Source: Acidobacteriota bacterium
GTDB taxonomy: Bacteria; Acidobacteriota; Holophagae; Thermotomaculales; Thermotomaculaceae
Length of the DNA stretch: 64,000 nucleotides
Direction: 5' to 3'
NCBI GenBank assembly: GCA_013151025.1
Contig: JAADJC010000065.1
Coordinates: forward strand, 1 to 64,000
In this document: in pieces, positions 40,585 through 64,000 of the stretch
Numbering within the stretch: position 1 is the stretch's first letter
Layout of the letters: each line of letters starts with the position of its first letter
The notes under the pieces: model-generated
What the model saw: only the letters and a program-made list of their open reading frames with translations
Database searches by the model: none
Told to the model about the DNA's origin: nothing
Translations under genes and position numbers: made by a program

Positions 40585-41972
40585 TAGAGGCAAAAACAGG
40601 GTTTATCGACCATTCGCAAATTCTGCATGTTCTGGAAAATTCCTCGTCTCCGGATCGCGGCGAGGTTGCGGAAATTCTGTCACATGCCCTGGAAATGAAG
40701 GGAATTTCCGCAGGGGAAACGGAACGCCTGCTGATGGTGGAAGACAATGAGCTGATTGACGAAATATGCCGAACTGCCAATCGGATAAAAAACGAAATCT
40801 ACGGCCGGCGGCTGGTACTGTTTGCGCCGTTGTATGTTTCCAACCTGTGTAAGAATGATTGTCTGTACTGCGCGTTCAGAACGACAAACACCTCAATAGC
40901 CAGGCGTACCTTGAGCCTGGATGAGATCCGGAAGGAAACAGAGAACCTGGTTTCTCAGGGCCATAAGCGGTTGCTTTTAGTGTCGGGAGAAGGACTGGGA
41001 GAGAGCGCACTGAACTATTTCATCAAGGCGATTGAAACCATTTACGACGTGAAAATCGGAAATGGAGAAATCCGGCGCATCAATATCAACATTGCGTCAC
41101 TTTCCGTAGATGGGTTTAGGCAGTTGAAGGCTGCAAAAATCGGCACTTACCAGTTGTTTCAGGAAACCTATCACTATAATATGTACAAGAAGATGCACCG
41201 ATCCGGTCCCAAGGCCAATTATGTGAACCACTTGACTGCTATTGACCGTGCAATGGAAGCGGGAATTGACGATGTAGGGGTGGGTGTGCTGTTCGGCCTG
41301 GCGGATTATCGCTTCGAGATCATGGCGTTGTTGCAGCATGTTCGCCATCTGGAGGAAAGGTTCGGTGTCGGTCCTCACACAATTTCTATTCCCCGGATCG
41401 AACCGGCTGAAGGTTCGGACGTGTCCCTGAGCCCCCCCCATGCTGTTAACGACAGAGATTTCAGGAAAATCATCGCGATTTTACGGGTTTCTGTGCCGTA
41501 TACGGGGATGATTCTCAGCACTCGGGAGACTGCAAAGATGAGACGCGCGGCATTTTTCCTTGGCATTTCCCAGATTAGTGCCGGTTCGAGAACAAATCCC
41601 GGCGGATACTCGGAAGATGATTCAGGAGCCCAATTTTCGCTGGGAGACCACCGGAGCCTGGATGAGGTCATTGCGGATATCGCAGGCCATGGCTATATTC
41701 CATCATTTTGTACCGGGTGTTACCGGCTGGGACGGACAGGGGTGGATTTCATGGACCTTGCAAAACCGGGGCTGATTCAACTGTATTGTCTTCCCAACGC
41801 GTTGACTACGTTTAAGGAGTACCTTGAAGACTATGCGACTGCTGAAACAAAGGTTGCCGGTGAAGCTGTTATTGAGGAGCAACTGGCAAACATTCCATCC
41901 GATGAAGTACGGAAAAAAACAGTTGGAAGCTTACGGGAAATAGAATCGGGTAAGCGGGACCTCTATTTGTAG
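40581..41972 (+). CDS. hydG: [FeFe]-hydrogenase maturase HydG
   Basis: 463 residues. Radical-SAM Cys triad CKNDCLYC (C-x3-C-x2-C) and a C-terminal auxiliary cluster region, CTGCYRLGRTG followed by a third Cys about 17 residues on. HydG cleaves tyrosine and builds the Fe(CO)2(CN)-cysteine synthon of the H-cluster. Its start overlaps hydA by four bases. hydE, the third maturase, is not in the window, so it must be elsewhere in the genome if maturation is standard. Confidence 0.95.
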   Translation: MIEAKTGFIDHSQILHVLENSSSPDRGEVAEILSHALEMKGISAGETERLLMVEDNELIDEICRTANRIKNEIYGRRLVLFAPLYVSNLCKNDCLYCAFRTTNTSIARRTLSLDEIRKETENLVSQGHKRLLLVSGEGLGESALNYFIKAIETIYDVKIGNGEIRRININIASLSVDGFRQLKAAKIGTYQLFQETYHYNMYKKMHRSGPKANYVNHLTAIDRAMEAGIDDVGVGVLFGLADYRFEIMALLQHVRHLEERFGVGPHTISIPRIEPAEGSDVSLSPPHAVNDRDFRKIIAILRVSVPYTGMILSTRETAKMRRAAFFLGISQISAGSRTNPGGYSEDDSGAQFSLGDHRSLDEVIADIAGHGYIPSFCTGCYRLGRTGVDFMDLAKPGLIQLYCLPNALTTFKEYLEDYATAETKVAGEAVIEEQLANIPSDEVRKKTVGSLREIESGKRDLYL

Positions 41973-41983
41973 GAGGCATTGTA

Positions 41984-43342
41984 ATGGTAAATGATAGAAA
42001 AGCGGATGTCAATCTGGCGGGGATTCATACAAGACAGGCACGGAAGAACTTTCCTTTATCCCGTGCCATGCCCTTTCCGGAATTGATTCATTCACTTTTT
42101 CAGGTGAAACTGGCCTGCCTGGAAACGAATAATCGTTTGGGATATCTGGCTGAACAGGTCTATATCCCATGTCGGGATGCAATTCGGGAAGGGTTGGACG
42201 GGAAACTGGACAGCAATTTTGATGTGACACTCTTCCAGGGTGGCGCAGGCACCTCTCTGAACATGACAGTGAACGAGGTGGTGGCGAACCGGGCGTTGCA
42301 GCTTTCCGGTAAGCCTGTTGGCCTGTGGGAAGCAATTCATCCCATTCTCCACGTGAATCTCCACCAATCCACAAATGATGTGGTCCCCACCGCCGGTCGG
42401 GTGGCCGCAATTACCTTGGTATACCGTCTGGAAAAAGCGGTGTTATTGCTGCAGGAGGCGTTGCAACGAAAAGAACACCAGTTCGAAAATGTTGTAAAAC
42501 CCGGCCGTACCCAGTTCCAGGAAGCATTTCCCATTACGCTTGGGCGGGAATTTTCTGCCTATGCATCTGCTGTTGCAAGGGACAGGTGGCGAGTATCCAA
42601 GCTGGTGGAGCGCCTCAGGGAAGTAAATCTCGGCGGAACAGCTATTGGAACCGGTGCCCTGGCGCCCCGTAAATACATTCTCCAGGTGGTAGATACGTTA
42701 AAACAGATTACGGGGTTTCCGTTAGCCCGGTTTGAAAACCTGGTGGACGGGACCCAGAATACAGATATACCGGTGGAAGTTCATGGGATTCTGACGGCAC
42801 TGGCAACCACTCTAATCAAGATTTCCGGGGACTTGCGTTTGATGTCTTCCGGGCCGGAGCATGGTTTCGGAGAAATCAGGCTCCCTGAGGTCCAGCCGGG
42901 TTCTTCCATCATGCCCGGCAAAGTGAACCCGGTGATCCCTGAATTTGCGACTGCATGCGCCCTTCGGGTTACAGCCAACCATCAGTTGCTGACCGCAGCG
43001 GCAGCCATGGGCAGCCTGGAGCTGAACCCGTTCGGGTTGGTGATAGTCCATGGACTACTGGAGTCCTGTACGTTTCTGATCAATGGGGTGCAACAACTGG
43101 CTTCCTGTGTGGATGGGATTGAAGCAAGAACCGGGAATTCTTTTTCCGTTGCACGGAGTGATTCAATTGTGACCCATGTAATCGCGGGAAAATTCGGATA
43201 CGACAGGGCAGGACAGATTTGCAGGGCAGCTCATGAAGCAGGGGAAAAGGTGGTGGAATATGTACTGAGGGCCGACCTGATTTCCAAAGCGGAGCTGGAC
43301 AAGCTGTTATCACCTGAAAATATCCTGAAACTGGGATTTTGA
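41984..43342 (+). CDS. aspA: Aspartate ammonia-lyase family protein
   Basis: 452 residues of the fumarase/aspartase superfamily: NLHQSTNDVVPTA near 120, and the signature GSSIMPGKVNPVIPE. The catalytic SS loop is present. It probably interconverts aspartate with fumarate and ammonia. It lies between hydG and hydF, and such an aspartase within hydrogenase-maturation operons is known from other anaerobes; it may supply ammonia, or a nitrogen source, for the azadithiolate bridge, which is inference. The gap to hydF is one base. Confidence 0.9.
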   Translation: MVNDRKADVNLAGIHTRQARKNFPLSRAMPFPELIHSLFQVKLACLETNNRLGYLAEQVYIPCRDAIREGLDGKLDSNFDVTLFQGGAGTSLNMTVNEVVANRALQLSGKPVGLWEAIHPILHVNLHQSTNDVVPTAGRVAAITLVYRLEKAVLLLQEALQRKEHQFENVVKPGRTQFQEAFPITLGREFSAYASAVARDRWRVSKLVERLREVNLGGTAIGTGALAPRKYILQVVDTLKQITGFPLARFENLVDGTQNTDIPVEVHGILTALATTLIKISGDLRLMSSGPEHGFGEIRLPEVQPGSSIMPGKVNPVIPEFATACALRVTANHQLLTAAAAMGSLELNPFGLVIVHGLLESCTFLINGVQQLASCVDGIEARTGNSFSVARSDSIVTHVIAGKFGYDRAGQICRAAHEAGEKVVEYVLRADLISKAELDKLLSPENILKLGF

Positions 43343-43343
43343 T

Positions 43344-44528
43344 ATGGCAGGCACACCAAAATCAAATCGACCTCACATTGCAATATTCGGTCGGCGGAAT
43401 GTCGGCAAATCATCCCTGATCAATGCGATAACATCTCAGAATTTATCAATTGTTTCCGACACGCCGGGCACTACCACTGACCCGGTGGAAAAAGCGATGG
43501 AGTTGCTGCCATTCGGGCCGGTGGTACTCATTGATACTGCCGGGCTGGATGATGAGGGTGAACTGGGGCGGTTGCGGACGAAACGGTCAGTGGATATTCT
43601 GCATAAGACGGATATAGCCATATTGGTTGTAGATGGGGAGGTTGACCCCGGTGACCGGCAGATGATGGAGAAATTGGATACGCTGGGGATTCCATTTATT
43701 CTGGTTTTTAACAAGTGTGACACAGAATCTTTTTCGGAAAAAACCTGCAGGAAATTGGAAGGCCTGCCTGTCAGCTCGGAAAGCGGAGAAGGGGTGGCAC
43801 AGTTGAAAGAACGCCTCCTGGACATTCTGAAGGACTGGGCGGAAACAGCAGCTCATTCTCTTACAGCAGGTCTTGTTACTCCCGGTGGGTTGGCAGTACT
43901 GGTTGTGCCCATTGACAGTGAGGCGCCGGCCGGCAGGTTGATTCTGCCTCAGGTTCAGGTGATTCGGGACATTCTGGACAATGACGCTCTCTGCATAGTA
44001 ATGAAAGAAAGAGAATTGGGCCATGGGCTCAGGTTACTGGGTAGAAATCCCGATATTGTGATTACCGATTCCCAGGCTTTCCTGAAGGTTGCGGCGGATG
44101 TTCCGGACGATGTGTCTATGACCTCATTTTCCATTCTCTTTGCCAGGCAGAAGGGGGATCTGGCAACGCTGGCAACGGGGGCCCGGGCGATTGAACACCT
44201 TCAGGATGGTGACACGGTGCTAATTTCGGAAGCCTGTACCCACCACGCGGTGGGAGATGATATCGGGACGGTAAAAATACCCCGGTTATTGCGGCAATTT
44301 ACCGGAAAACAGCTTCATTTCAGGTATGCTAAGGGGAAATATTTTGAAATGGAAGATGATGCGGCGCTTGTAATTCATTGCGGCGGCTGTATGCTCAATC
44401 GACAGGCGATGATTTCCAGAATAAACCAGAGCCGGGGAAGGCAAGTGCCAATGACAAACTACGGTATGGCAATCGCATTTACCCTTGGGCTGTTTGAGCG
44501 GGCACTGCGACCTTTCGAGTTGTCCTGA
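43344..44528 (+). CDS. hydF: [FeFe]-hydrogenase maturation GTPase HydF
   Basis: 394 residues. N-terminal GTPase: GRRNVGKSSLINAI (G1), DTAGLDDEG (G3) and NKCD (G4). The C-terminal domain carries the [4Fe-4S] ligands EACTHH and CGGC. HydF is the scaffold that loads the 2Fe subcluster into apo-HydA. It is the last gene of the operon and meets the convergent hybrid kinase gene after 12 bases, with no obvious terminator between. Confidence 0.95.
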   Translation: MAGTPKSNRPHIAIFGRRNVGKSSLINAITSQNLSIVSDTPGTTTDPVEKAMELLPFGPVVLIDTAGLDDEGELGRLRTKRSVDILHKTDIAILVVDGEVDPGDRQMMEKLDTLGIPFILVFNKCDTESFSEKTCRKLEGLPVSSESGEGVAQLKERLLDILKDWAETAAHSLTAGLVTPGGLAVLVVPIDSEAPAGRLILPQVQVIRDILDNDALCIVMKERELGHGLRLLGRNPDIVITDSQAFLKVAADVPDDVSMTSFSILFARQKGDLATLATGARAIEHLQDGDTVLISEACTHHAVGDDIGTVKIPRLLRQFTGKQLHFRYAKGKYFEMEDDAALVIHCGGCMLNRQAMISRINQSRGRQVPMTNYGMAIAFTLGLFERALRPFELS

Positions 44529-53133: not shown

Positions 53134-53160
53134 AAACTTCCTGGTTCTGGTGTAGAAAAA

Positions 53161-53189
53161 TACCACAAACGGCGTAAAATACCACAAAC
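53161..53189 (+). promoter_or_regulatory. Two TACCACAAAC direct repeats upstream of a sigma-54 promoter
   Basis: TACCACAAAC occurs at 53161-53170 and 53180-53189, 19 bases apart, 135-165 bases before the sigma-54 promoter. The half CCACAAA is the inverse of TTTGTGG found in the palindrome at 59039-59050. Such spacing suits enhancer sites of a sigma-54 activator. Proposed, not demonstrated. Confidence 0.4.
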
Positions 53190-53323
53190 AAATCAATTAT
53201 AAGAAAATAAAACGGAAAAAACTGTATATACGGAAATATGAGGTAGAATCCAACAAACCGCGAACTTTTCGGATAGCTGTGAAAAAACGTCTAACACGTA
53301 GAAAAAAAAATAGTTGAACAGGT

Positions 53324-53339
53324 TGGCATCATCCTTGCT
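53324..53339 (+). promoter_or_regulatory. Sigma-54 promoter before the GcvH-like gene
   Basis: TGGCAT (53324-53329), five bases, TTGCT (53335-53339): the GG and GC pairs are 12 bases apart, as in the -24/-12 consensus TGGCAC-N5-TTGCA/T. It lies 24 bases before the GcvH-like ATG. Confidence 0.85.
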
Positions 53340-53363
53340 TAATAAAACGGCAGGAGGTGTGAG

Positions 53364-54197
53364 ATGACGAGCTTACTGGTGGCATTCACGTTTCTGGGTT
53401 GTTTCCTGATGGTTCGGGAAACAGGCCATCACGGAACAAGCCGCAACTTAGATGGATTTCCGGGGGAAATCCCGGAAATGGAAGGGCTGAAAGAAGTCTT
53501 TCCAAACCTGCCTTCGGACCGTCGGGTATGCCGCTACTATTTCGGGAATCAGTCCGGGGCACCGGTTTATTGTGAGAATGAATACGATTGTGCGTCCTGT
53601 CATATTCATCGGAAAATGATGGCGACAGGCCTGGGGAAGATGGAAAATGTGAAATGCGGACTGAAAATATCCGGAGTTCCGTTCCCGTTGGACCGGTACT
53701 ATCACCGGGGCCACGTATGGGCAAGGCCGGAGAGGAATGGTTTTGTGAGAATCGGGCTGGACGGACTGGCATTTCGGATGGCCGGGGCGGAAAGCGAAAT
53801 TCACGTGCCAGACATTGGAGAAATGCTGGAGCAGGGAGAATCCGGGCTTTCAGTCACCCGTTTCGATGGCAGAATACTCCCGTTTCTGGCACCGATGTCG
53901 GGGGAAGTGGCAGCAATTAACCCTCACCTGAAAGAAGAGCTGGCGGATCCGGATAAAAGCGGAGAAAGTTGGGCAATGGTTATCAAACCCTTTGCGTTGA
54001 GCCGGGAATTGCAGAATCTCCTGTTTGGTATGGAGGCGGCAAAGTGGTTTCGCTATGAAATGGATGCACTGGTCAGAATGGCATCCGGCAAACGTGATGA
54101 ATATGAGTTCGCGGCGGATGGTGGCGCGTTGAATGTGGAAACCCTCAGTGATTTTCCATGGAACGAATTTGTAACAAACTTTCTGTTTTCGGCGTAA
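53364..54197 (+). CDS. GcvH-like (lipoyl-fold) protein without the lipoyl lysine, membrane-anchored
   Basis: 277 residues; AGGAGG upstream. The first 17 residues (MTSLLVAFTFLGCFLM) form a helix that resembles the start of the neighbouring micro-membrane proteins. Cys56, Cys70, Cys76 and Cys79 follow; Cys76-Ala-Ser-Cys79-His80 is a CxxCH pattern that could bind haem c or a metal. From about 130 the chain matches glycine-cleavage H-protein: YHRGHVWARPE, FVRIGLDGLAFR, and PMSGEVAAINPHL. The residue that carries lipoate in GcvH is not Lys (region SVTRFDGRILP has none). No GcvP/T genes are present. It is under sigma-54 control and probably works in redox signalling or electron transfer, not glycine cleavage. 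Confidence 0.8.
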   Translation: MTSLLVAFTFLGCFLMVRETGHHGTSRNLDGFPGEIPEMEGLKEVFPNLPSDRRVCRYYFGNQSGAPVYCENEYDCASCHIHRKMMATGLGKMENVKCGLKISGVPFPLDRYYHRGHVWARPERNGFVRIGLDGLAFRMAGAESEIHVPDIGEMLEQGESGLSVTRFDGRILPFLAPMSGEVAAINPHLKEELADPDKSGESWAMVIKPFALSRELQNLLFGMEAAKWFRYEMDALVRMASGKRDEYEFAADGGALNVETLSDFPWNEFVTNFLFSA

Positions 54198-54215
54198 GGC
54201 TGAAGGGAGGAGAAA

Positions 54216-54419
54216 ATGGTCGTTTTACTGGTAATCTTAACATTCGCGGTTCTGTTCACTGCGGGAATGATTGTGGAACGCAGGGAAAACCGGGAACGCC
54301 AGGCTGCCCGGGAATTGCGGCAGTTGGCACAACAGGCGGTATTTGCCCAGGACGGCGGTGAGCCCATTGGCAAAGAAACCGCAGACAACTCAGATGAAGC
54401 TGTAAAAGAAGAGAGGTGA
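54216..54419 (+). CDS. Micro-membrane protein with VFAQDGGEP motif (copy 1)
   Basis: 67 residues; GGAGG upstream. One N-terminal transmembrane helix (MVVLLVILTFAVLFTAGMIV), a basic/acidic linker, then VFAQDGGEPIGKE and an acidic tail. Two paralogues lie at 58401 and 58617. They share the helix onset and the VFAQDGG-P-KE motif. Unknown function. It follows the GcvH-like gene by 18 bases and is in the same sigma-54 transcript. It may be a small membrane subunit or regulator of the electron-transfer complex. Confidence 0.75.
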   Translation: MVVLLVILTFAVLFTAGMIVERRENRERQAARELRQLAQQAVFAQDGGEPIGKETADNSDEAVKEER

Positions 54420-54744
54420 GGGAAGGAACGGTGCGTTGCGCCGAAACAGTGCGAGAGAAAGTGCGTGTGCGTGGGAGGGGAGTGGGAAAGAAGGGATTCA
54501 CCTCGTACACGTACACTCTCACATTCACTGGCATTGGTCTGCCGCCCACTTCCAACGCCCACTCTCCTTTCTTCGCTCAACCCTGGTTTTTTCTTAACCT
54601 CAGCCTTGCCTTAGTTATCTGGTTATGCAACGGGAAATTGTCCCTTGACTGGAAAGTTTGATATTGTCCCCCGATTTTCAAATTTTGGGTCGGTTTTTGT
54701 TCTTTTCTCTTTCCAGTCGCTTTGAAAATGGTGTGCCGAGGAAT
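54420..54744 (+). other. Gap between convergent genes; low-complexity only
   Basis: 325 bases between the micro-protein gene and the convergent GGDEF gene. It contains gtgcg/gtgcgt and ctcac/cactctc stretches, some mirrored, and a tail gctcaaccctgg...cttaacctcagcc similar to the elements beside lexA. No gene, no strong hairpin and no consensus promoter are visible. Confidence 0.5.
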
Positions 54745-57618
54745 TCAATATGGCCCGGATACAGTGTTCCGTATCTTTTTTGCCTCATATAAAAATTTAT
54801 CTGCTTCAGCGACAAGAGCTTCGGGCTCTGTATTTTCCTTTGGGATAATGCAGGTCCACCCGATACTGACGGTAAGCACTGATGCTGTTGGGGAATCGGA
54901 GTGGGAAATTGACAGGGCTTCAACGGAGTTTCTGACAGATTCCGCAAGTTCGGCGGCTGAGTGGCGCTTGGTTTCAGGTAGAAGGAGGATGAATTCTTCA
55001 CCACCATATCGGGCTGCAAGATCGAAAGCACGACGGGCATGGTCTGATAGGACTCGGGAAACAGCCCGCAGGCACTCATCACCGGCAAGGTGACCGTAAC
55101 AGTCATTGAATTTCTTAAAATGATCAATGTCAATAAACAGCAGGGCAAGACAGTGTTGATTTCGAAAGCAGCGGCGACATTCTGAGGTAAGTGCCTCATT
55201 GAATTTTCGCCTGTTTATAAGCCCTGTTAATGCGTCATGAATTGCCAGCTCTTCAAGTTGTTTGTTTACAGTTGCCAGTTCGCTATTTGCTGCCTCCACT
55301 TCTTTTGTTCGTTGTGCGACAATCTGCCTTAGCTCGCGTTCCTTTGCCCGTAAACGTGCCGTACGGTACCTGACAATGCTCCAACCAAGCAGGACAAGAC
55401 ATACCAGAACAAGGATGAAGAAGTAGATTGTCTGGTGAAAGGCTGGTGTAACTTCCAGGATGATTTGTGCAGGGGGCGTGGCCCACGGGCCGGCGCCGTG
55501 CCGGGCAGTCAAGGTGAATTGAAAGCGGCCAGGTGGCAGGGATGTAAAAAAAGCCTCCTGCGCCTTACCTGCCTTAACCCAGGTGGAATCAAAACCGATC
55601 AACCGGTAACGAAAGGACAGTTTTTCCGCTGAGACCAATGAAATGGCTCCATAACGGATCTGAACTCGTCTGCTCCCGCTTGGAATGTTGAACACGGGGA
55701 TTTTTTCACCGGATTCAGGTTTGGCTTGCCGGCCATCAATCAGTACTTCCTCTATGCTTACAGGCGGGGGTAATTCGATTGCTTTTACTCGGACCGGGTC
55801 TATTATGGCTACTCCGTTGGTTGTAGCAAAACAGAAATTACCGTTACTCAAGATGGTACCTCCCGGATGGCCACTGTTGCACTCAGTGGAAGGCATTCCG
55901 TCAATTCGGCCAACAACCAAAATTTCCAGGTGGGATTTTTCCCGGCGATGAATTTCATTCAACATTTTTCGGCTGATTCGCATAATACCGAGATCGCTGC
56001 TTATCCAGAATTGGTCATGGAGATCAGGTAATATCCAGTACAACATCTCATTTGGTAGCCCCTGTGTGCTGTTAATCAATTCAAGGTGCCCCTTTTCAAA
56101 GCGGCCAAGTCCGGCGTCTGTGGCAAGCCATATAACATGGTCATTGTCCTGATAAATACAGTGAACACGAGATTTCGAGAGCCTTTCAGTACCGGGAACA
56201 GAAACGAGTTTCCCGTTGATAATCCATGCAAGGCCTGCAGTTGTCCCCACCCAAATTCGCCCATGTATGTCCTGTTTCAGGCTTCGAATGACAGTTGGTT
56301 GTGTGTTGCTAATTCGTTGCCGCCACTGAATTTGTCCGTTCGGAGACATACAGGCCAATCCGTTACCGGTACCAATCCAGAGACGTCCCAGATGGTCCTG
56401 AAGCATGCAGTAGATGATGTTTCTTCCAGTGGGTTTTGACCAGCGATACCAGCTTACTTTTCGGTCGTGGATGTGAGCGAGGCCGTTCCCACTTGTTCCA
56501 ATCCAGAGATCGCCTGTCCGGTCCGTCAGGAAGGCTCGAATTTCAACGCCTATCAATCCCGGGTCACTGAAAGGTGGTGGGAAGGGAATGCCGCTTTCCA
56601 GGCGAACAACACCGCCCCCACTGGTTCCGACCCACAAATTGTCTTTCTGATCTTCATACACGGACCAGATGAATGGTACCGGAAGCCCTTCTCTTACGGT
56701 CCAGGAAGTGACAGCACCATCTCGAAGCCGGGAAAGGCCTCCTGCAGTAACGAACCAGAGAGATCCTGCTCGATCTTCGAATATCTGACGGACAAGGTCA
56801 TCTGACAGGCCGTCGGCGGTTGAAAATCGGGCCAAAATCCCGTCATGAAAACGAAAAGAACCATTCCCTCTGGTGCCAATCCATATATTGTGGTCTTTGT
56901 CTTCGAGCAGGCAACGAATCCACAGTCCTTTCAGTTTTTTCAGAACGGCCAAATTCAGTTTGCGTCCATTCATGACAACCCGGATGCCAAGGGAAGTACC
57001 AATCCAAAGCCGGCCTTTGGAATCTTCCAGTATGGCATTAACAATGTCACCCTGCTTGAAATAGTGACTTGCCGGTCTTGTATCTCCGAGAGTCTTCATC
57101 TGAAGCAGCCCGCGCATAGTGCCGGCCCATACCCGTGCGCCCCGGCCATGGGCAATGGTGAGTGCAGAGGCAGTATTTGTTTCAATTGTATGCAGTGGAA
57201 CTACTTTCCTTGTGGCCAATTCAAACTTTAAAACACCCTGTTCGGTCGCAAGGGCAAGGGTGTGAGGCCCAATCTTTGCCAGTCCCAAAGCGCCACCGGC
57301 TGGAAGGCCATCTTCTGCTCCCCATCTGAGGAAAACATCGTTTTTAAGGTAAAACAGATTGTTGCGTGTTGTATACCAGATGCCATTTTCCGAGTCAGCC
57401 AGAAGCCCCGTAACGTAATGGTCTCCCGGTGTGGCATTTGTTGGAAGGGGAATCTTTCGAAAGTGAGTGCCGTCAAATCGAATGAGGCCTGAAGGGGCAC
57501 CAATCCAGATTGCTCCATCAGTGGTCTGGGCGATTGCTGTCAGGGTTTCCTGGGGAAGTCCGTCTTTGGCCTGCCATGTCGTCAATGTATACTGCGTGAC
57601 TTTTTTATGGGGGTTCAA
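54745..57618 (-). CDS. Periplasmic-propeller diguanylate cyclase (GGDEF)
   Basis: 957 residues from a TTG at 57618. About a dozen two-component-propeller repeats (IWIGAPSGLIRFDG, LWIGTSLGIR, IWVGTTAGLAWI), a Y_Y_Y domain (about 640-745), one transmembrane helix (FILVLVCLVLLGWSIV), a coiled coil, and a GGDEF domain with RYGGEEF and an I-site RAFD five residues before it. It should make c-di-GMP in response to a periplasmic ligand. In-frame codons extend upstream to 57735 and encode a signal-peptide-like SAILFILAIAYQPALG, but have no ATG, GTG or TTG; the true start may be a rare codon (ATA at 57711-57709 behind AGGAG) or be altered by a sequence error. Confidence 0.9.
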   Translation of the reverse strand: MNPHKKVTQYTLTTWQAKDGLPQETLTAIAQTTDGAIWIGAPSGLIRFDGTHFRKIPLPTNATPGDHYVTGLLADSENGIWYTTRNNLFYLKNDVFLRWGAEDGLPAGGALGLAKIGPHTLALATEQGVLKFELATRKVVPLHTIETNTASALTIAHGRGARVWAGTMRGLLQMKTLGDTRPASHYFKQGDIVNAILEDSKGRLWIGTSLGIRVVMNGRKLNLAVLKKLKGLWIRCLLEDKDHNIWIGTRGNGSFRFHDGILARFSTADGLSDDLVRQIFEDRAGSLWFVTAGGLSRLRDGAVTSWTVREGLPVPFIWSVYEDQKDNLWVGTSGGGVVRLESGIPFPPPFSDPGLIGVEIRAFLTDRTGDLWIGTSGNGLAHIHDRKVSWYRWSKPTGRNIIYCMLQDHLGRLWIGTGNGLACMSPNGQIQWRQRISNTQPTVIRSLKQDIHGRIWVGTTAGLAWIINGKLVSVPGTERLSKSRVHCIYQDNDHVIWLATDAGLGRFEKGHLELINSTQGLPNEMLYWILPDLHDQFWISSDLGIMRISRKMLNEIHRREKSHLEILVVGRIDGMPSTECNSGHPGGTILSNGNFCFATTNGVAIIDPVRVKAIELPPPVSIEEVLIDGRQAKPESGEKIPVFNIPSGSRRVQIRYGAISLVSAEKLSFRYRLIGFDSTWVKAGKAQEAFFTSLPPGRFQFTLTARHGAGPWATPPAQIILEVTPAFHQTIYFFILVLVCLVLLGWSIVRYRTARLRAKERELRQIVAQRTKEVEAANSELATVNKQLEELAIHDALTGLINRRKFNEALTSECRRCFRNQHCLALLFIDIDHFKKFNDCYGHLAGDECLRAVSRVLSDHARRAFDLAARYGGEEFILLLPETKRHSAAELAESVRNSVEALSISHSDSPTASVLTVSIGWTCIIPKENTEPEALVAEADKFLYEAKKIRNTVSGPY

Positions 57619-57989
57619 CCCCAGGGCGGGCTGGTACGCTATGGCAAGAATAAAGAGGATAGCTGATAATAGATGAATTCTATGCCCTGAATAGATGTTT
57701 AATAACTGTATATTGTTCTCCTGTTTCCGTTCTTATCCTTGGCCGATAAAATTTCAAAGTCTTTTCCGCTTTTCATGTTAAATGCACTCTTTACAGTATA
57801 CCATTGTTGTCTGAGTTTTGGCGTTTTTTTATGAGTGAATATACCTTGCTGCCGGTGACTGACAAAAAAAGAACGGGAATGGCCTAATTTTCCCCGCTGC
57901 GGTAGTTGGCAAGTGGACAGGTTGTAAAAAACAGGGAATCAGCCATCGGTAATGCTTTGATTTATCTCCACCGGCATACGTACATTCAC

Positions 57990-58046
57990 TTGCACTTCCG
58001 CGGCGCGAAGCGCCGTCTGTTCGCGCTGTTTTGAGTGCAATTTTTT
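57990..58046 (+). ncRNA. Candidate small RNA or attenuator with alternative hairpins
   Basis: TTGCACT (57990-57996) pairs with AGTGCAA (58034-58040), which is followed by six T, a terminator-like end. Inside, CGGCGC-GAA-GCGCCG (58001-58015) forms a perfect stem. The overlapping GCGCGAA (58003-58009) can pair instead with TTCGCGC (58020-58026). The two inner folds are exclusive. Transcription is not shown. Confidence 0.35.
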
Positions 58047-58149
58047 ATTGTCCGGCATTAAAATATGATAGTATATCTGAATAAGCGGGTGTGTTTCCGC
58101 CGGCTTTTATTCCCCCGTGAACAATCAAAAGCTTGTGTGTTGAAAAAAA

Positions 58150-58161
58150 CCACAGTTGTGG
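58150..58161 (+). promoter_or_regulatory. Palindrome CCAC-AGTT-GTGG, candidate activator site
   Basis: Perfect inverted 12-mer CCACAGTTGTGG, about 150 bases before the sigma-54 promoter. A two-base variant, CCACGTTTGTGG, sits at 59039-59050 before the ferredoxin gene. Likely enhancer or operator for this cluster's regulator. Confidence 0.45.
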
Positions 58162-58311
58162 ATATATGCCACGCCTTCTGTAACGCATAGAAAGAAAAAG
58201 GAGAAATAATCCAAAGTAATTGGTGCTGTTGAAAAATGCAACAAGTAAGCCCTGTGCTGAAATTTTGTCAATATTCACGTAACAACAAGAAAATAAAAGC
58301 AAATGGGATTT

Positions 58312-58327
58312 TGGCACGGCAATTGCA
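58312..58327 (+). promoter_or_regulatory. Sigma-54 promoter before the micro-protein pair
   Basis: TGGCAC (58312-58317), GGCAA, TTGCA (58323-58327): a full match to the sigma-54 consensus. It is 73 bases before the ATG of the first gene. Confidence 0.93.
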
Positions 58328-58400
58328 CAGTGATTAGGTGTCGGGTGAAAACCCGGGGTCATTGAAATAACAAACGGCGAAAGCCGATAGGAGGCCTGAG

Positions 58401-58604
58401 ATGGTTGCTTTGTTAGTGCTTTTTACAATTGTTGGATGTCTGGTAGTGGATTCGATTGTTCTGTCTGTGCGGGAACGGAGAGCGGTTATGGCTGGTGAGC
58501 GGAAGCTGACCGGTGCGGAAAGTATGGTGTTTGCCCAGGATGGCGGCAAGCCGGTTGAAAAAGAAACCGAAACTGAGGCCGATAGGGTCGAGAAAGAGTC
58601 ATAG
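58401..58604 (+). CDS. Micro-membrane protein with VFAQDGGKP motif (copy 2)
   Basis: 67 residues; AGGAGG upstream. Helix MVALLVLFTIVGCLVVDSIVL at the N-terminus, then basic RERR, then MVFAQDGGKPVEKE and an acidic end. Paralogue of the proteins at 54216 and 58617; identical start MVALLV with copy 3. It is the first gene behind the consensus sigma-54 promoter. Unknown function; probably one-pass inner-membrane with a cytosolic tail (positive residues follow the helix). Confidence 0.8.
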   Translation: MVALLVLFTIVGCLVVDSIVLSVRERRAVMAGERKLTGAESMVFAQDGGKPVEKETETEADRVEKES

Positions 58605-58616
58605 GGGAGGACGAAG

Positions 58617-58847
58617 ATGGTTGCCTTACTGGTTGTTTTTACGATCCTTGCGTGCCTACTGGCAGACGCGATTCTCCTTTCAGTGCGGGAGCATAGAGCG
58701 GTAAGAGCAAGTCAGGTGTCTACAGTTCCGGCCCATGGCTTGGTGTTTGCCCAGGACGGCGGTGAGCCGGTGGAGAAAGATGAGAAGGTGATCGGCGAAG
58801 TGCCCTGGAAAGATATGGATGCAAAGAATGAGAGCCGTGAAAGGTGA
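58617..58847 (+). CDS. Micro-membrane protein with VFAQDGGEP motif (copy 3)
   Basis: 76 residues; GGGGAGG upstream, 12 bases after copy 2. Helix MVALLVVFTILACLLADAILL, then SVREHRAV (copy 2 has SVRERRAV), then LVFAQDGGEPVEKDE and a longer charged tail. Copies 2 and 3 look like a tandem duplication. A hairpin at 58901-58934 follows, then the ferredoxin gene. Confidence 0.8.
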   Translation: MVALLVVFTILACLLADAILLSVREHRAVRASQVSTVPAHGLVFAQDGGEPVEKDEKVIGEVPWKDMDAKNESRER

Positions 58848-58900
58848 CAGGCAAAGCTGAATGAAAAAGAACGTCAAAGCGTTCACGAAGAACATAAAAA

Positions 58901-58934
58901 ACCGGTGCCTATGGGAAAACCATTGGACACCGGC
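58901..58934 (+). terminator. Stem-loop between micro-protein pair and ferredoxin gene
   Basis: CCGGTGCCTATGG and its imperfect inverse CCATTGGACACCGG make a stem of about 12 pairs with two mismatches and a GAAAA loop. On the plus strand it is followed by ctttgtcttt, a weak T tract, so it may attenuate rather than stop transcription into 59099. Confidence 0.5.
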
Positions 58935-59038
58935 TTTGTCTTTGCTTATAGTTTACTTAGTGCGAACCGGGGAATAAGAACACGTATCAACGGTAACTGT
59001 TTCATCTTTACGTTTCCGGAGGGGGAAAATAGCTGCAG

Positions 59039-59050
59039 CCACGTTTGTGG
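59039..59050 (+). promoter_or_regulatory. Palindrome CCAC-GTTT-GTGG, candidate activator site
   Basis: CCACGTTTGTGG within AGCCAC-GTTT-GTGGCT, 49 bases before the ferredoxin ATG. It differs from the palindrome at 58150-58161 at two loop positions. No correctly spaced sigma-54 or sigma-70 hexamers adjoin it, so a role as operator or leader hairpin are both open. Confidence 0.4.
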
Positions 59051-59098
59051 CTGATTTTGCAATGAAGATGAATCAATATAAGAAAAAAGGAGTGTCCA

Positions 59099-59890
59099 AT
59101 GCCCAAAGCCATGCTGGTGGACATTACGGAATGCGTGGGGTGCGGGGTCTGTTCGGAGGCCTGCAAGAAGGAGCAAAAGCTTCCCGGGCCTGTTGGGAAA
59201 AAAAAGGATTATGCTAATTATACCGTCCTTCGTGAGGAAGGCGATGATGTGTATGTACGGGAATTGTGCATGCACTGCACAGATCCGACCTGCGCGTCTG
59301 TCTGTCCGGTAAGCGCGCTGCACAAAACACCGGAAGGCCCGGTGGTGTATGATTTTGACCTCTGTATCGGTTGTCGTTACTGTATGATGGCGTGCCCTTT
59401 TGGTGTGCCCAAGTACGAGTGGCAGAAACCGATTCCTAAAATTAAAAAGTGCATCATGTGTTACGATACCCGGATCAAAAAAGGGTTGCCGACAGCCTGT
59501 AGCCAGGCCTGCCAGGAAGAGGGTGGTGGCGCGACTTACTTTGGGGAACGAAGTGAGTTGCTGGCGGAAGCCCATCGCCGCATCAAAGAAAATCCGGATA
59601 CCTACGCTCCACATGTGTATGGAGAACACGAGGTCGGTGGCACCAATGTGATGTTTCTCGCGCCGAAGGATCGTCCCTTTGAGTCTCTTCATTTCAATAC
59701 AAAACTGCCGGAAGAGGCACTGCCTGAATTGACCTGGCAGGTGTTGAATAAAATTCCGGTCATTGTTCCGGTCTGGGCGACTTTCCTGACCGGCATGTGG
59801 TGGCTGAACAACCGGAAGACGGAAGTGGAAGAAAATGAAGGATCCAAGAAAATTCGTGATGAAAAGCATGGGGAGGGTGAAAATGACTAA
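59099..59890 (+). CDS. HybA-like four-cluster ferredoxin subunit
   Basis: 263 residues; AAGGAG upstream. Four [4Fe-4S] sites typical of the HybA/DmsB/NrfC group: CVGCGVCSEAC, CMHCTDPTCASVC, CIGCRYCMMAC and CIMC...C...C. Near the C-terminus one helix (IPVIVPVWATFLTGMWWL) anchors it to the membrane, as in HybA. No Tat signal is present. It passes electrons between the NrfD/HybB subunit and an unidentified partner; no hydrogenase or molybdo-subunit adjoins it. Its end overlaps the next gene by eight bases. Confidence 0.92.
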   Translation: MPKAMLVDITECVGCGVCSEACKKEQKLPGPVGKKKDYANYTVLREEGDDVYVRELCMHCTDPTCASVCPVSALHKTPEGPVVYDFDLCIGCRYCMMACPFGVPKYEWQKPIPKIKKCIMCYDTRIKKGLPTACSQACQEEGGGATYFGERSELLAEAHRRIKENPDTYAPHVYGEHEVGGTNVMFLAPKDRPFESLHFNTKLPEEALPELTWQVLNKIPVIVPVWATFLTGMWWLNNRKTEVEENEGSKKIRDEKHGEGEND

Positions 59891-61037
59891 GCCAAAATTT
59901 AAGTTTACATTCTGGCGGGTTGTAGCAGCCCTGATCCTGATTGCCGGCGCGGTGGCGACTTTTCAGCGTTTTGTGTATGGTCTGGGATATGCCACTCATT
60001 TATCCGATGATTTTCCCTGGGGCCTTTGGATCGGGTTTGATGTTATTTCCGGTGTGGGCCTGGCGGCCGGTGGCTTTACCATTACCGCCATTGTCTATAT
60101 TTTTAATCTAAAAAAATATCACTGTATTGTGAAAGCAACCGTACTGACGGCTTTTATGGGTTATGTACTGGTGGGAACCGCTCTCTTGTGGGACCTTGGT
60201 AAATACTATGATATCTGGCATGCCCTGGTATTTGGAAACCACCATTCCGCCATGTTTGAATTGGCGGTCTGCGTGGCAAGTTACATCGGGGTACTGGCTT
60301 TGGAGTTCTCATCCATTGCGCTGGGTAAATTCAAGTGGTTGCGGAAACCTGTTAAGTTCCTCAAGAAGAGTTATATCTTATTGGTTATCCTTGGCGTGTT
60401 GATTTCCACCCTGCATCAGTCGTCACTGGGAACTCTGTATGTCATCGTTCCTGAAAAATTGCATCCCTTGTGGTACAGCCGACTTCTGCCTATTTACTTC
60501 TTTTTCACTTCGATAGGCGTCGGGCTGGGTATGACCGTGGTGGAATCCTATTTGAGCTGGCGGGGAATGGGCCATGAAGCTCCCCTCCCGGTACTGGCGA
60601 ACCTGGTCCGGGGAATGGTTGTGATTCAATTGACATTCTTTGTCGCCATGTTTGAGGGGTTGATTGTCAGCCATAAACTGGGTTATCTCGTGGACGGTTC
60701 ATTTGAGTCCGGGATGTGGTGGCTGGAAATGGCGTTGTGGGTGTTTATTCCCACAATTATTGCGTTCCGGAAAAAGTGGATGATGACCCGTTTTGGCGTG
60801 TTTGCCGCAGGATTTTCAGGCGTATTGGGTTTTTTGATGAATCGGCTTAACGTGTCCATGACGGCATTTCAATGGTCCGCAAAGGTCAAGTATGTGCCGT
60901 CCTGGCAGGAAATGGCTGTGTCCGCTTCCTTTGTAGTGGTTTCGTTTATCATATTTGCGTACGCAGTCAAATATTTTAACCTCTTTCATGAAGAAGATGA
61001 GGAGTCTATAGAAGAATCCGCTGTAAAGGCGGTCTAA
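59883..61037 (+). CDS. HybB/NrfD-type membrane quinone oxidoreductase subunit
   Basis: 384 residues from the ATG at 59883 (GGGGAGGG upstream); a longer frame starts at 59835 inside the ferredoxin gene. About nine to ten helices. The onset FWRVVAALILIAGAVATFQRFVYGLG and HLSDDFPWGLWIG are characteristic of HybB. It moves electrons and protons between the quinone pool and the ferredoxin subunit without haem. It has no catalytic partner in view. The hairpin GCCCC...GGGGC at 61051-61066 with five T follows and could reduce expression of the kinase. Confidence 0.92.
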   Translation: MTKPKFKFTFWRVVAALILIAGAVATFQRFVYGLGYATHLSDDFPWGLWIGFDVISGVGLAAGGFTITAIVYIFNLKKYHCIVKATVLTAFMGYVLVGTALLWDLGKYYDIWHALVFGNHHSAMFELAVCVASYIGVLALEFSSIALGKFKWLRKPVKFLKKSYILLVILGVLISTLHQSSLGTLYVIVPEKLHPLWYSRLLPIYFFFTSIGVGLGMTVVESYLSWRGMGHEAPLPVLANLVRGMVVIQLTFFVAMFEGLIVSHKLGYLVDGSFESGMWWLEMALWVFIPTIIAFRKKWMMTRFGVFAAGFSGVLGFLMNRLNVSMTAFQWSAKVKYVPSWQEMAVSASFVVVSFIIFAYAVKYFNLFHEEDEESIEESAVKAV

Positions 61038-61050
61038 ATTTAAGTGGGAT

Positions 61051-61076
61051 GCCCCGCAACAGGGGCGTCCCTTTTT
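61051..61076 (+). terminator. Short intercistronic hairpin, possible attenuator
   Basis: GCCCC (61051-61055) and GGGGC (61062-61066), then CGTCCC and five T, between the NrfD-type gene and the kinase. The stem is only five pairs. Confidence 0.4.
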
Positions 61077-61088
61077 AAAGGGGTTTAC

Positions 61089-62675
61089 ATGAACCCGTTA
61101 AAGAACATCAGCTCGATCCGCCTGAAAATCTATATCATCATTGCAGTATCCATCACTTTTGCTTTTCTCGCTTTTGATATGATCATGCTGAAACATCAGC
61201 GGAATATCTATATTGAAGACCTGTTATTCAATTCCCGCTCCGTGTCCGACACGATTCTGAAATCACTGGAACAGGACATGATGGCGGACAATACCACAAG
61301 CATCAACATAACGTTAAAAGCGATTGGAAAGCAGGAGCTTATCAAGGAGCTGAGGATATACAATCACAAGGGAGAAGTCCGCTCTTCCATGGTTCCGGAT
61401 GAAGTGGGAAAGGCCCAGTTCAGCCGGAAGGAATCCCGCCAGTGTTCTATTTGCCATCAGGCAGGGCATGAACAAAACAAGAATCACGACATGTTAACTT
61501 ACAATGTAGATACAAAAGATAGCTGTATTACGTCCGTGATTGTCCCGATCCAGAATCAGGCCCGTTGCTCAACTGCCGCCTGTCATGCCCACAGTCAGAC
61601 CCAGCGGATTCTGGGGTTCCTGAACATGGGCGTTTGCCGGCTGCGGCTTCAGGCGGACATTCACAAGAGTCAGGTTCAGATTCTCCTGGTTTCCCTTCTC
61701 TTCATCCTTCTCTTACCCGCTCTTATCATGCTGTTCCTGAAAAAACACGTATCCAATCCCCTTCGTCAGCTTCTCAAGAGCACCGGTAAGATTGGCAGAG
61801 GCGATCTGGATTGCAAGGTAGATATTGTCAGCCGGGATGAACTGGGGCAGTTGGCTTTCTCCTTCAACAAAATGCTGGAAAGACTGGTTGCGTTCAAGAC
61901 TGAAATTGAAGGGTGGAACGAAGAGTTGGAAGAGCGGGTGTCAAAGAAAACCATGCAGCTGAAGGAAGCCCAGAAACAGATTATCCAGTCGGAAAAAATG
62001 TCCTCTCTGGGGCGTCTCGCCGCTGTTATTGCCCATGAGATTAACAACCCGATATCCGGCTTGATCGTATTCATTAAATTGTTACAGAAAACAATGGATA
62101 AAGAGGTACTTACCGAAGAGGATCGTGTAAAAGTGGTCAAGAGACTGTGCATCATGGAAAGTGAAGCCAAACGTTGCGGCCACATTGTTTCCGAGCTCTT
62201 GTCTTTTTCCAGAGCTGAGCAGAAGATGGTGGAATGCAATATTGCAGAAATCATTGAGCGGTCGGTTTCCATTTTGAAATTCAAAACCAAGGACAAGCAA
62301 ATCAGTTTGAATCTTGACATTGAATCGAATATTCCAATGATCCAGTGTGACCCCGGGAAAATTCAGCAGATCATCATGAATCTGGTCCAGAATGCCATTG
62401 AGGCCTTGCCCCAGGGGGGAGAGATTGACATTTCTGCCTGTTTCTTGAAAGAAGAAGAAAAATTGAAACTGGTTGTCCACGATAATGGAATCGGGATACC
62501 GGAGGAATTTCTTCCCCATATTTTTGAACCTTTTTATTCATCCAAAGATAATGGCCAAAGTGTGGGAATCGGGCTCTTTGTGGTGTACGGAGTGATTCAC
62601 CAGCATAATGGCGTCGTTGAGGTGGACAGTGCCGAGGGGAAGGGAACAACCTTTAGCATATTCCTTCCCGCATAG
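61089..62675 (+). CDS. Histidine kinase with periplasmic haem-c motifs
   Basis: 528 residues from the ATG at 61089 (AAAGGGG upstream). Helices at about 14-34 and 197-218 enclose a periplasmic domain with Cys119-Ser-Ile-Cys122-His123 (CxxCH) and Cys160...Cys165-His166 (CX4CH), two haem-c type attachment motifs. HAMP at about 218-270, then HisKA with the phospho-His in IAHEINNP, and HATPase boxes NLVQNAIEAL, DNGIGIPEEF, and GIGLFVVYG. It should report redox potential or a ligand of periplasmic haem. The response regulator follows at once, so they form a two-component pair beside the HybA/HybB genes. Confidence 0.92.
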   Translation: MNPLKNISSIRLKIYIIIAVSITFAFLAFDMIMLKHQRNIYIEDLLFNSRSVSDTILKSLEQDMMADNTTSINITLKAIGKQELIKELRIYNHKGEVRSSMVPDEVGKAQFSRKESRQCSICHQAGHEQNKNHDMLTYNVDTKDSCITSVIVPIQNQARCSTAACHAHSQTQRILGFLNMGVCRLRLQADIHKSQVQILLVSLLFILLLPALIMLFLKKHVSNPLRQLLKSTGKIGRGDLDCKVDIVSRDELGQLAFSFNKMLERLVAFKTEIEGWNEELEERVSKKTMQLKEAQKQIIQSEKMSSLGRLAAVIAHEINNPISGLIVFIKLLQKTMDKEVLTEEDRVKVVKRLCIMESEAKRCGHIVSELLSFSRAEQKMVECNIAEIIERSVSILKFKTKDKQISLNLDIESNIPMIQCDPGKIQQIIMNLVQNAIEALPQGGEIDISACFLKEEEKLKLVVHDNGIGIPEEFLPHIFEPFYSSKDNGQSVGIGLFVVYGVIHQHNGVVEVDSAEGKGTTFSIFLPA

Positions 62676-62776
62676 AAATTTAACGAAGGACGGGAAAGTG
62701 GATTATGGTAAACTTCCCGGGAGAACACAAATTGTTATCCGGCGTGTTGAACGGCTGGAATAGTATGGAGGCCTGA

Positions 62777-64000
62777 ATGAATGACAACGTAAAGATACTG
62801 GTTGTAGATGATGAGTTGATTGTCCGGGAATCCATGCAGGGATGGCTGGAGGAAGACGGATACCACGTAGAAGTCGCGGAAACTGCGGAAGCCGCGCTGG
62901 GAATGATTGGCGAAAGAGAATTCGACATGGCCTTTGTGGACATTAAAATGCCGGGGATTGACGGAATCGAATTGCTGAAACGGCTGAAGGATCAGTTTGC
63001 CACTATAGACGTTGTAATGATGACGGCTTACGCATCAGTGGACAATGCGGTGGAGGCTATGAAAATTGGCGCGTACGACTATCTGACCAAGCCTTTTGAC
63101 CCGGATTATGTTTCCATGATGGTGAGAAAAATTATAGCAAGACGTCAGTTGGAGCAGGAAAATGTGAGGCTCAAAGAAAATATTGAAACTGCACTAAAGC
63201 ATGTGCACATTATTGGGGAAAGTTCGGCGATCAAAGCGATTTTGAGTCAGGTTGAGGAGGTGGCCCCCTCCGATACCTCCGTTCTCATCAGCGGGGAGAG
63301 TGGAACCGGCAAAGAAATGGTGGCCCGGGCGATCCATTATGCCAGTCCCCGGCGGTTTGAGCCACTGGTAGTGGTGAGCTGCGGCGCCCTTCCGGAAGGC
63401 CTGGTGGAAAGTGAGCTTTTCGGATACGAAAGAGGCGCGTTTACCGGAGCATTTTATAAGAAAAAGGGAAAATTCGAAGCTGCAAACGGTGGAACCCTTT
63501 TTCTCGATGAAATCGGGGAGCTGAACCGTAAAATGCAGGTCGATTTACTCCGTGTTCTTCAGGAGAGAGAAATCACACGGATCGGCAGCAACAAAAGTAT
63601 CAAGGTCGATTTTCGGGTTCTGGCTGCATCCAACCGAGATTTAAAAAAAATGGTAGAAGAAGGGACTTTTCGGGAAGATCTGTTTTACCGTCTCAATGTA
63701 TTCAATATATACGTGCCGACCCTTCGGGAACGGGTAGACGACATCCCCCTGCTGGTGGAGCATTTTATTTCCGTGCTTAGGCGAAAGACCGGCAAACAGG
63801 TGGAAGGGATTACCTCCCAGGCACTGAATAAGCTGAAGACGCACGGCTGGCCCGGCAATGTCAGGGAACTTCAAAATGCCGTGGAGCGTGCCTTTGTGAC
63901 GACAAAAGGCAAGCTGATTACCACGGAAGAATTGATTTTTCTTGCGCCTGAGAAAATACCGGTTGTTACATCTCCGTCCCTTTCCCTGTCTGACATTGAG
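62777..64000 (+). CDS. Sigma-54-dependent response regulator (NtrC type), 3'-partial
   Basis: 408 codons, no stop before the window ends; GGAGG upstream. Receiver (1-120) with VVDDE and phospho-Asp in VDIKMPG. AAA+ domain: GESGTGKE (Walker A), GAFTGA (sigma-54 contact), FLDEIGEL (Walker B), and RLNVFNI. The C-terminal helix-turn-helix is beyond the window. It activates sigma-54 promoters after phosphorylation, most simply by the kinase just upstream, and the two sigma-54 promoters in this window are its obvious targets. Confidence 0.95.
   Translation, partial: MNDNVKILVVDDELIVRESMQGWLEEDGYHVEVAETAEAALGMIGEREFDMAFVDIKMPGIDGIELLKRLKDQFATIDVVMMTAYASVDNAVEAMKIGAYDYLTKPFDPDYVSMMVRKIIARRQLEQENVRLKENIETALKHVHIIGESSAIKAILSQVEEVAPSDTSVLISGESGTGKEMVARAIHYASPRRFEPLVVVSCGALPEGLVESELFGYERGAFTGAFYKKKGKFEAANGGTLFLDEIGELNRKMQVDLLRVLQEREITRIGSNKSIKVDFRVLAASNRDLKKMVEEGTFREDLFYRLNVFNIYVPTLRERVDDIPLLVEHFISVLRRKTGKQVEGITSQALNKLKTHGWPGNVRELQNAVERAFVTTKGKLITTEELIFLAPEKIPVVTSPSLSLSDIE

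Follow-up and report, generated by a model that had tools for sequence, protein, structure and literature searches.

A conserved sigma-54-linked gene cluster in an Acidobacteriota genome as a candidate membrane redox-signalling module

The DNA studied here, which we call the window, is the whole stretch of 64,000 bases at positions 1-64000 of an 82,886-base contig (JAADJC010000065.1) from the 2.6 Mb draft genome of an Acidobacteriota bacterium. Towards its end lies a cluster of genes for a GcvH-like protein, very small ("micro-") membrane proteins, an iron-sulfur (FeS) protein, an NrfD-like membrane subunit, a histidine kinase with two c-type haem motifs, an NtrC-type sigma-54 response regulator and, past the window end, an M54 archaemetzincin. 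We consider it fairly probable (roughly 60%) that the cluster represents one form of a widespread module for redox signalling at the membrane, which activates itself and works with quinone and haem. A preliminary description, made from the letters of the window, had named the parts from the GcvH-like protein to the regulator. All of them are present where it had placed them, as judged by open reading frames (ORFs) and by Pfam and NCBIfam matches, but the module is larger than it had suggested: the M54 gene, a DGG tail shared by several of its membrane proteins, and the breadth over phyla go beyond that account.

A gene cluster kept across genomes and phyla

The genes and RNA elements of the cluster are as follows (TM, transmembrane segment).

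53364-54197, + strand: GcvH-like protein (Pfam GCV_H 38.4 bits, cut-off 22.2)
54216-54419, + strand: micro-membrane protein sm1, 67 amino acids, TM and FAQDGGEP
54745-57618, - strand: GGDEF-type sensor gene (Propeller, Y_Y_Y and GGDEF), between sm1 and sm2
58336-58400, + strand: 5' leader with two small hairpins before sm2
58401-58604, + strand: micro-membrane protein sm2, 67 amino acids, FAQDGGKP
58617-58847, + strand: micro-membrane protein sm3, 76 amino acids, FAQDGGEP
58902-58933, + strand: RNA hairpin between sm3 and FeS (z -3.8)
59099-59890, + strand: FeS protein of HmcB/HybA type with a C-terminal hydrophobic segment
59835-61037, + strand: NrfD/HmcC-like membrane subunit, likely start 59883, as in sister genomes
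61089-62675, + strand: histidine kinase with an extracytoplasmic PAS/Cache-like sensor, CxxCH and Cx4CH (longest ORF from 61044)
62777-64000, + strand: NtrC-type sigma-54 response regulator (GAFTGA), ending at 64123 on the contig
64107-64652 of the contig, past the window end: M54 archaemetzincin gene, overlapping the regulator gene

The operon continues beyond the window edge into the M54 gene. In the window genome the cluster is divided by the GGDEF-type sensor gene, which was absent from the preliminary description; gene calling placed no such gene at the corresponding place in sister loci L025 and L028, where the run consists of gcvH, sm1, more micro-membrane genes and FeS (here L, G, C and f denote loci, genomes, contigs and families). 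Among the nine cluster proteins of the window genome, a Pfam search found no catalytic oxidoreductase, as had been proposed. This part of the proposal stands for the window cluster and fails in relatives, since in other Acidobacteriota some versions have more than one GcvH-like protein, and some have multihaem cytochromes or a molybdopterin-type subunit; the missing catalytic subunit is therefore not a general property of the module.

The order of the module is kept in four genomes of the genus (in two of them split over two contigs) and also in G004 and G008. In L030 and L031, from another genus of the family, and in L069, from a further family, a single run of genes pointing the same way comprises the micro-membrane genes, gcvH, FeS, NrfD, kinase, regulator and M54. 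Scanning species genomes with an M54 alignment gave at least 579 confirmed places, and our counts refer to the best 80 by score, which come from Acidobacteria, Ignavibacteria, Bacteroidetes, Zixibacteria, Deltaproteobacteria, Gemmatimonadota, Chloroflexi and others. The recurrent order at these loci is GcvH-like, FeS, NrfD, GcvH-like, di-haem-motif kinase, sigma-54 regulator and M54. Profiles matched a regulator in 73 of the 80 loci, a haem-motif kinase in 59, a GcvH-like protein in 54 (50 by the general profile and 23 by a Cys-motif profile), NrfD in 41 and FeS in 39, with the full gene set in 35. M54 adjoins the regulator gene on the same strand in 70/80 loci, at a median gap of -1 base. Clustering of neighbouring genes gave no additional partner present in over 11 of 100 loci. 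Gene order was one of the points on which the preliminary description had offered itself for refutation, and it holds across phyla.

Several genes lie near the cluster. By eye, genes for a trimeric [FeFe]-hydrogenase and its maturation enzymes can be read at 37098-44528 of the window, ~9 kb before the cluster. In the window genome, over contig positions 64107-71439 (L001 4107-11439), M54 is followed by genes that read as GAF, flavodiiron/metallo-beta-lactamase, a YeeE/YedE pair and KatG, an oxidative-stress-like neighbourhood that was not seen after M54 in L025, L027 and L029. In L029 (genome G003), two multihaem cytochrome genes with 7 and 5 CxxCH motifs are found at 9628-11910 on the minus strand, ~5-8 kb beyond M54.

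Sigma-54 promoters, activator sites and the regulon

Two sigma-54 promoter-like sites head the cluster, and each is preceded by three activator-like sites (a triad). Matches are to TGTTG-N7-CAACA, and distances are given in bases before the -24 element.

53151-53167, + strand: activator-like site 1 of the first promoter, 8/10, 173 before the sigma-54 site
53170-53186, + strand: activator-like site 2 of the first promoter, degenerate, 6/10, 154 before
53239-53255, + strand: activator-like site 3 of the first promoter, 8/10, 85 before
53324-53339, + strand: sigma-54 promoter-like site TGGCATCATCCTTGCT, 24 bases before the gcvH start
58138-58154, + strand: activator-like site 1 of the second promoter, 9/10, 174 before
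58157-58173, + strand: activator-like site 2 of the second promoter, degenerate, 7/10, 155 before
58227-58243, + strand: activator-like site 3 of the second promoter, 10/10, 85 before
58312-58327, + strand: sigma-54 promoter-like site TGGCACGGCAATTGCA, exact consensus

The site at 58312 is the sole exact match to the sigma-54 consensus in the window, and the one at 53324 has a single mismatch, as is also the case for two other places. When up to two mismatches are allowed, 35 matches are found against 33.3 expected, which is not above chance, and it is therefore conservation that decides whether the promoters are real. The site before gcvH is kept in all four genus genomes, always exactly 24 bases from the start codon. 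Among the named loci, a sigma-54 site of at least 9 bits precedes 20 of 34 first genes of a run, compared with 33 of 509 other genes; this scoring was usable in 34 of the 80 loci, and its weights are assumed values.

The activator motif is a 17-base palindrome that we spotted by eye in upstream sequences of f1 and f35 and then tested on the named loci; a count of 6-base dyads gave little by itself. The count covered 55 of the 80 loci (L089-L091 are copies of f1 genomes). Upstream regions of core genes, 9% of the bases, hold 17 of the 20 perfect copies of TGTTG-N7-CAACA, where 1.8 would be expected, and a site of at least 9/10 is found upstream in 34/55 loci. Two of the three triad places score at least 8/10 at 0.03% of 3000 random window positions, yet they do so at both window promoters.

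The spacing of the triad is also kept. L025 and L028 have the sites at 173/154/85 and 172-173/85, and there the counterparts of the degenerate second site of the first promoter score 8/10 and 9/10, respectively. In L026 it is 170/151/82, and in L030 and L031 it is 168-170/149-151/80-83, with the middle copy absent at one promoter. Triads of Bacteroidota stand at 182/163/93 in L121, L124 and L139 and at 183/164/95 in L140, so that the internal spacing is nearly kept; Deltaproteobacteria and Ignavibacteria have other spacings. This survey took in the window, 16 earlier loci and L092-L168. Outside it were L026 (covered separately), L027, L029, L032-L041, L070, L073, L075, L077, L081, L082, L086 and, as copies of genomes already used, L089-L091; the contig of L027/L090 starts 141 bases before the site, and a triad is not readable there.

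On one hand, the number of two-mismatch sigma-54 matches in the window is what a chance neighbourhood with fortuitous promoter-like sites would give. On the other hand, that explanation is refuted by gene order, site spacing and motif conservation over genomes and phyla, and we give it practically no weight; as candidates in their own right, chance promoters are ruled out by conservation together with the activator sites. Both -24/-12 promoters of the preliminary description are thus borne out by conservation and by the triad upstream of each. Its proposal that the module controls itself through sigma-54 is likewise strongly supported, at the level of sequence, by the conserved sites and triads at both promoters.

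The kinase and regulator genes, which are 3' of the second promoter and on the same strand, would share its transcript, and the hairpin lies between sm3 and FeS on the way. Counterparts of this hairpin are found in L028 (5395-5490, z -5.9) and, at only z -1.5, in L025 (10640-10730). It is possibly an attenuator or a processing site, and an attenuator here might yield more micro-membrane than FeS message.

Genome-wide, there are 13 exact sigma-54 sites, one in the window and 12 surveyed outside it; a survey on exact sites misses promoters with a mismatch, such as the one at 53324. One other exact site, on contig C110, has a triad and precedes an unlinked gene for a 70-amino-acid micro-membrane protein with a FAQDGG tail, and two further exact sites have a single weak activator-like site each. 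Two more perfect activator-type sites, on C41 and C52, are within predicted genes and have no accompanying sigma-54 site; we attribute them to chance. All four genus genomes searched have the unlinked gene, each time with its promoter laid out alike and with triads at 172/153/84 (G000), 172/153/83 (G001), 171/152/84 (G003) and 170/151/82 (G002, where the second and third sites are weaker). A leader like that of sm2 precedes sm2 in three genus genomes and the unlinked gene in four (L187, L207, L208, L209); neither the region nor the sm2 leader matched an Rfam family at gathering score. Because the unlinked gene has the same promoter layout in 4/4 genomes, the micro-membrane proteins look like a main output of the regulator.

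Proteins of the module

Both haem motifs are found in 73 of the 75 kinases picked by profile, and the CxxCH and Cx4CH residues are invariant in all 28 aligned kinases. A structure model of the sensor resembles extracytoplasmic PAS/Cache domains, with the CxxCH stretch at low confidence. The region has a weak Pfam match, below the cut-off, to the Mcp40H-20 sensor PF21563, which we take to be the haem-c PAS sensor of Geobacter. RpoN and c-haem assembly genes are present in the window genome. By its haem-binding motifs, the protein is a predicted c-type haem sensor kinase. The regulator matches Response_reg, Sigma54_activat and AAA_lid in Pfam, and the ORF to 64123 ends in a stretch that reads as helix-turn-helix-like. 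With a receiver, an AAA+ domain with GAFTGA, an adjacent kinase gene, and -24/-12 sites with activator sites upstream, the pair has the predicted make-up of an NtrC-type two-component system. The M54 protein scores 81.9 bits in Pfam (cut-off 24.4) and is the only M54 match in the genome; the zinc signature HExxHxxGxxHCx4C, including the catalytic Glu, is invariant in 11/11 aligned M54 proteins.

The GcvH-like protein of the window has an N-terminal TM, a Cys motif (C56, C70, C76, C79), the GcvH fold and EFAADGG near the C-terminus. Its structure model holds a confident GcvH domain (Foldseek match 1onl, E 2.4e-9). From this fold alone, it could be a true lipoylated carrier of glycine cleavage, with the cluster serving one-carbon metabolism. 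However, the window protein has no Lys at or beside the lipoyl position, and the lipoyl column is Lys in only 9 of 138 GcvH-like proteins; the membrane anchor and the DGG tail also speak against this role, and no glycine-cleavage partner was seen in the cluster. We regard the one-carbon explanation as very improbable, and for the window protein a true glycine cleavage H-protein is rejected on the lipoyl position. A Lys within one residue of the column occurs in 53 of the 138, so some members of the group may be lipoylated. The fold alignment covered 32 of 144 GcvH-like proteins.

The micro-membrane proteins and most GcvH-like proteins have two features in common, a membrane helix at the N-terminus and an [AQ]DGG tail at the C-terminus. 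Counted anywhere in the protein, DGG is present in 133 of the 144 GcvH-like proteins, preceded by Q (65) or A (37), and in 38 of 333 other core proteins. The last DGG begins 26 to 51 residues before the end in the listed GcvH-like proteins, and those without it include ORFs of class-level relatives (L032-L034, L039) and one ordinary GcvH. In micro-membrane proteins of the family, FAQDGG and a short run of charged residues form the C-terminus, and TMADGG is found near the end of small TM proteins in distant loci (L076, L077, L099, L101, L109, L117). Among 187 small TM ORFs from 142 cluster loci (copies included, as L091 repeats L031), DGG occurs in the second half of 28, all adjoining cluster genes by position, compared with GGD in 3, DAG in 1, DGA in 1 and EGG in 0.

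Two kinds of fusion bear on where the GcvH domain lies. A protein with TM, receiver and GcvH directly follows the haem-motif kinase in L032 (10926-12047), with ORFs of matching length and start in L034 and L039. In Bacteroidota, GcvH-like proteins of ~550 residues (L152 2119-3795, L141 1825-3522 and similar loci) read as a signal peptide and periplasmic part, then TM, then GcvH, with GCV_H the only domain found by Pfam. From these forms the GcvH domain would face the cytosol. The large periplasmic part in L152 reads as resembling a solute-binding domain. In L070 (f20), a GcvH-like protein without a called TM lies beside M54, the regulator and a kinase with a ferredoxin-like-reading N-terminus, and no FeS or NrfD was called nearby.

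Best matches of the FeS protein in NCBIfam are HmcB (240 bits, cut-off 420) and HybA (190.5, cut-off 263), and those of the NrfD-like protein are HmcC (288.9, cut-off 550) and a HybB-type model (260.8, cut-off 450); a sequence search of the PDB with NrfD gave no match at E 0.01. From their family, the FeS/NrfD pair would exchange electrons with the quinone pool. The HybA and HybB matches could point to subunits of [NiFe]-hydrogenase 2 whose catalytic genes were lost or moved, and the preliminary description had used these labels. They do not survive, since both scores are under the curated cut-offs and are outscored by HmcB and HmcC. In addition, the genes conserved around the pair are those of the GcvH-like protein, the kinase, the regulator and M54, and none of seven recurrent neighbour groups reads as a hydrogenase. 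A hydrogenase-2 remnant is highly improbable, and we reject it on model cut-offs and context.

The first cysteine stands at residue 12-15 in 29 of 55 FeS proteins, as in the window, and proteins outside these and the 15 with a Tat motif look like wrong or late starts. Genes reading as tat lie directly upstream of the cluster in L030 and L069 (tatA/B/C) and in L031 (tatC), although the FeS protein of the cluster has no Tat signal.

Weighing the readings and comparison with known systems

In the module as we picture it, the periplasm-facing, PAS-like kinase would sense a redox or ligand signal through a domain with two c-haem motifs, and would phosphorylate the adjacent NtrC-type regulator, as is expected of its family. 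The regulator would then bind the TGTTG-N7-CAACA-like triads, whose layout upstream of the -24/-12 promoters is observed, and with sigma-54 would activate the two transcripts of the module itself plus the unlinked micro-membrane gene. The products would be the FeS/NrfD pair and the membrane-anchored, [AQ]DGG-tailed GcvH-like and micro-membrane proteins. The GcvH-like domain is joined elsewhere to a receiver domain or to a presumably periplasmic part, which suggests that it acts as a cytosolic adaptor, probably not lipoylated in the window, linking kinase signalling to the FeS/NrfD complex. The micro-membrane proteins may be adaptors at the cytosolic face as well, and M54 might act on the protein set of the module. 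That a redox signal is what the module senses, as the preliminary description had it, is a prediction.

The strongest rival explanation is a conventional FeS plus NrfD quinol/cytochrome oxidoreductase of the complex iron-sulfur molybdoenzyme (CISM) type, without the molybdopterin subunit. Here the kinase and regulator would control expression only, the GcvH-like and micro-membrane proteins would be accessory subunits, and a cytochrome partner would be encoded elsewhere. In favour of this rival, multihaem cytochrome genes lie inside the cluster in L074, L081, L083, L099 and L101, and molybdopterin-type subunits in L073 (just below the Pfam cut-off), L076 and L131. G003, of the same genus, has its two multihaem cytochrome genes beyond M54 on the other strand, and FeS and NrfD score best against HmcB and HmcC. 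Sets of FeS, NrfD and multihaem cytochrome without a molybdopterin subunit are described for MBNT15 in passages of PMC9386147, where similar sets of Melioribacter roseus are cited as quinol:electron acceptor reductases; the passages of that paper on glycine cleavage and on NrfD are unrelated to each other. However, gene calling in the f1 loci L001, L025, L030 and L031 gave none with at least three CxxCH motifs, the lone micro-membrane gene is a likely regulon member without FeS or NrfD, and the receiver-GcvH protein suggests signalling. We regard a conventional oxidoreductase as possible, if rather unlikely.

Several observations weigh against the reading of the locus as a signalling module. 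For lineages whose clusters include cytochromes or a molybdopterin-type subunit, an ordinary respiratory complex is an equally good fit, and the window FeS protein lacks a signal peptide, although a Tat motif is present in 15 of 55 relatives. Family members G005, G006 and G007 lack a full-length GcvH-like protein and a NrfD match, and 26 of the 80 M54 loci are without a GcvH-like gene, some of them at contig ends; the 80 are the best-scoring of at least 579, so these rates lean to the type of the window. Regarding the promoters, L078 and L079, from other families, have no notable sigma-54 site before gcvH, and 21 of 55 loci lack an activator site of at least 9/10 upstream. Pooled activator distances peak modestly (17 at 173±3, 13 at 85±3 and 9 at 154±3, with a mean of 7.7 per interval of that width), because spacing differs between lineages. 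There are 287 activator-site pairs, compared with 97 for the reversed motif, an excess that is explained in part by the palindrome being commoner than its reverse genome-wide (113 vs 62 per strand at one mismatch). In the host genome, 13 sigma-54 activator matches exceed 200 bits, and therefore the assignment of the triad to the local regulator rests on co-conservation. Finally, the module is described here from sequence, from which the electron path, the signal, DNA binding and the roles of the DGG tail and M54 are predicted.

A bolder and doubtful extension of the signalling module is that proteins with the [AQ]DGG tail form a new class of redox adaptors anchored in the membrane and co-induced by the haem kinase and sigma-54, and that the dedicated archaemetzincin cleaves or reads this tail. 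If true, quinone electron transfer, phosphorelay and regulated proteolysis would be combined in one module, and bacterial archaemetzincins would gain a physiological substrate class. Order, activator palindrome and short tail are kept in Acidobacteriota, Bacteroidota and Deltaproteobacteria, and the module is probably useful in many bacteria. In it, bacterial archaemetzincins, which have no settled role, recur together with a sigma-54 regulator and a haem-motif kinase, and a function open to testing is offered for GcvH-like "orphans" and tiny membrane proteins. According to a passage in PMC3427221, the biological importance of archaemetzincins is hardly understood. As the preliminary description had stated, no described system has this make-up as far as the open literature goes (subscription papers not covered): we found there no paper describing the module and none with GcvH and NrfD together. 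Among the matches listed, papers naming archaemetzincin included none on such a gene context by title.

Known systems share parts of this make-up. The Hmc complex of Desulfovibrio has the subunits closest to the window FeS and NrfD (HmcB and HmcC, both below model cut-offs), but its HmcA-type cytochrome has no counterpart in the window cluster. The recurrent partners here are GcvH-like, micro-membrane, haem-motif kinase, sigma-54 regulator and M54, and the FeS protein has no signal peptide. Likewise, HybA and HybB of E. coli hydrogenase-2 are homologous FeS and membrane subunits, but the matches here are below cut-offs and no hydrogenase gene was read in the cluster. Compared with the glycine cleavage H-protein, the fold is the same, but the proteins here add a membrane anchor, a Cys motif and a DGG tail, and the lipoyl lysine is not conserved.

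On the regulatory side, the window kinase is closest to AtoS/ZraS and the regulator to AtoC/ZraR among the models, below cut-offs. Unlike ZraSR, AtoSC and NtrBC, the pair here has two c-haem motifs, the TGTTG-N7-CAACA triad and a recurrent link to redox genes and M54. The likeness to the haem-c PAS sensors of Geobacter consists of the weak PF21563 match and a CxxCH inside an extracytoplasmic PAS-like domain; the match is below the Pfam cut-off, and the window kinase has two motifs, CxxCH plus Cx4CH. CarG of Myxococcus is described, in a passage of PMC3427221, as a bacterial archaemetzincin homologue with a role in transcription that has lost the catalytic Glu. In contrast, the 11 aligned M54 proteins of the module keep this residue, and M54 lies beside a sigma-54 regulator in 70/80 loci.

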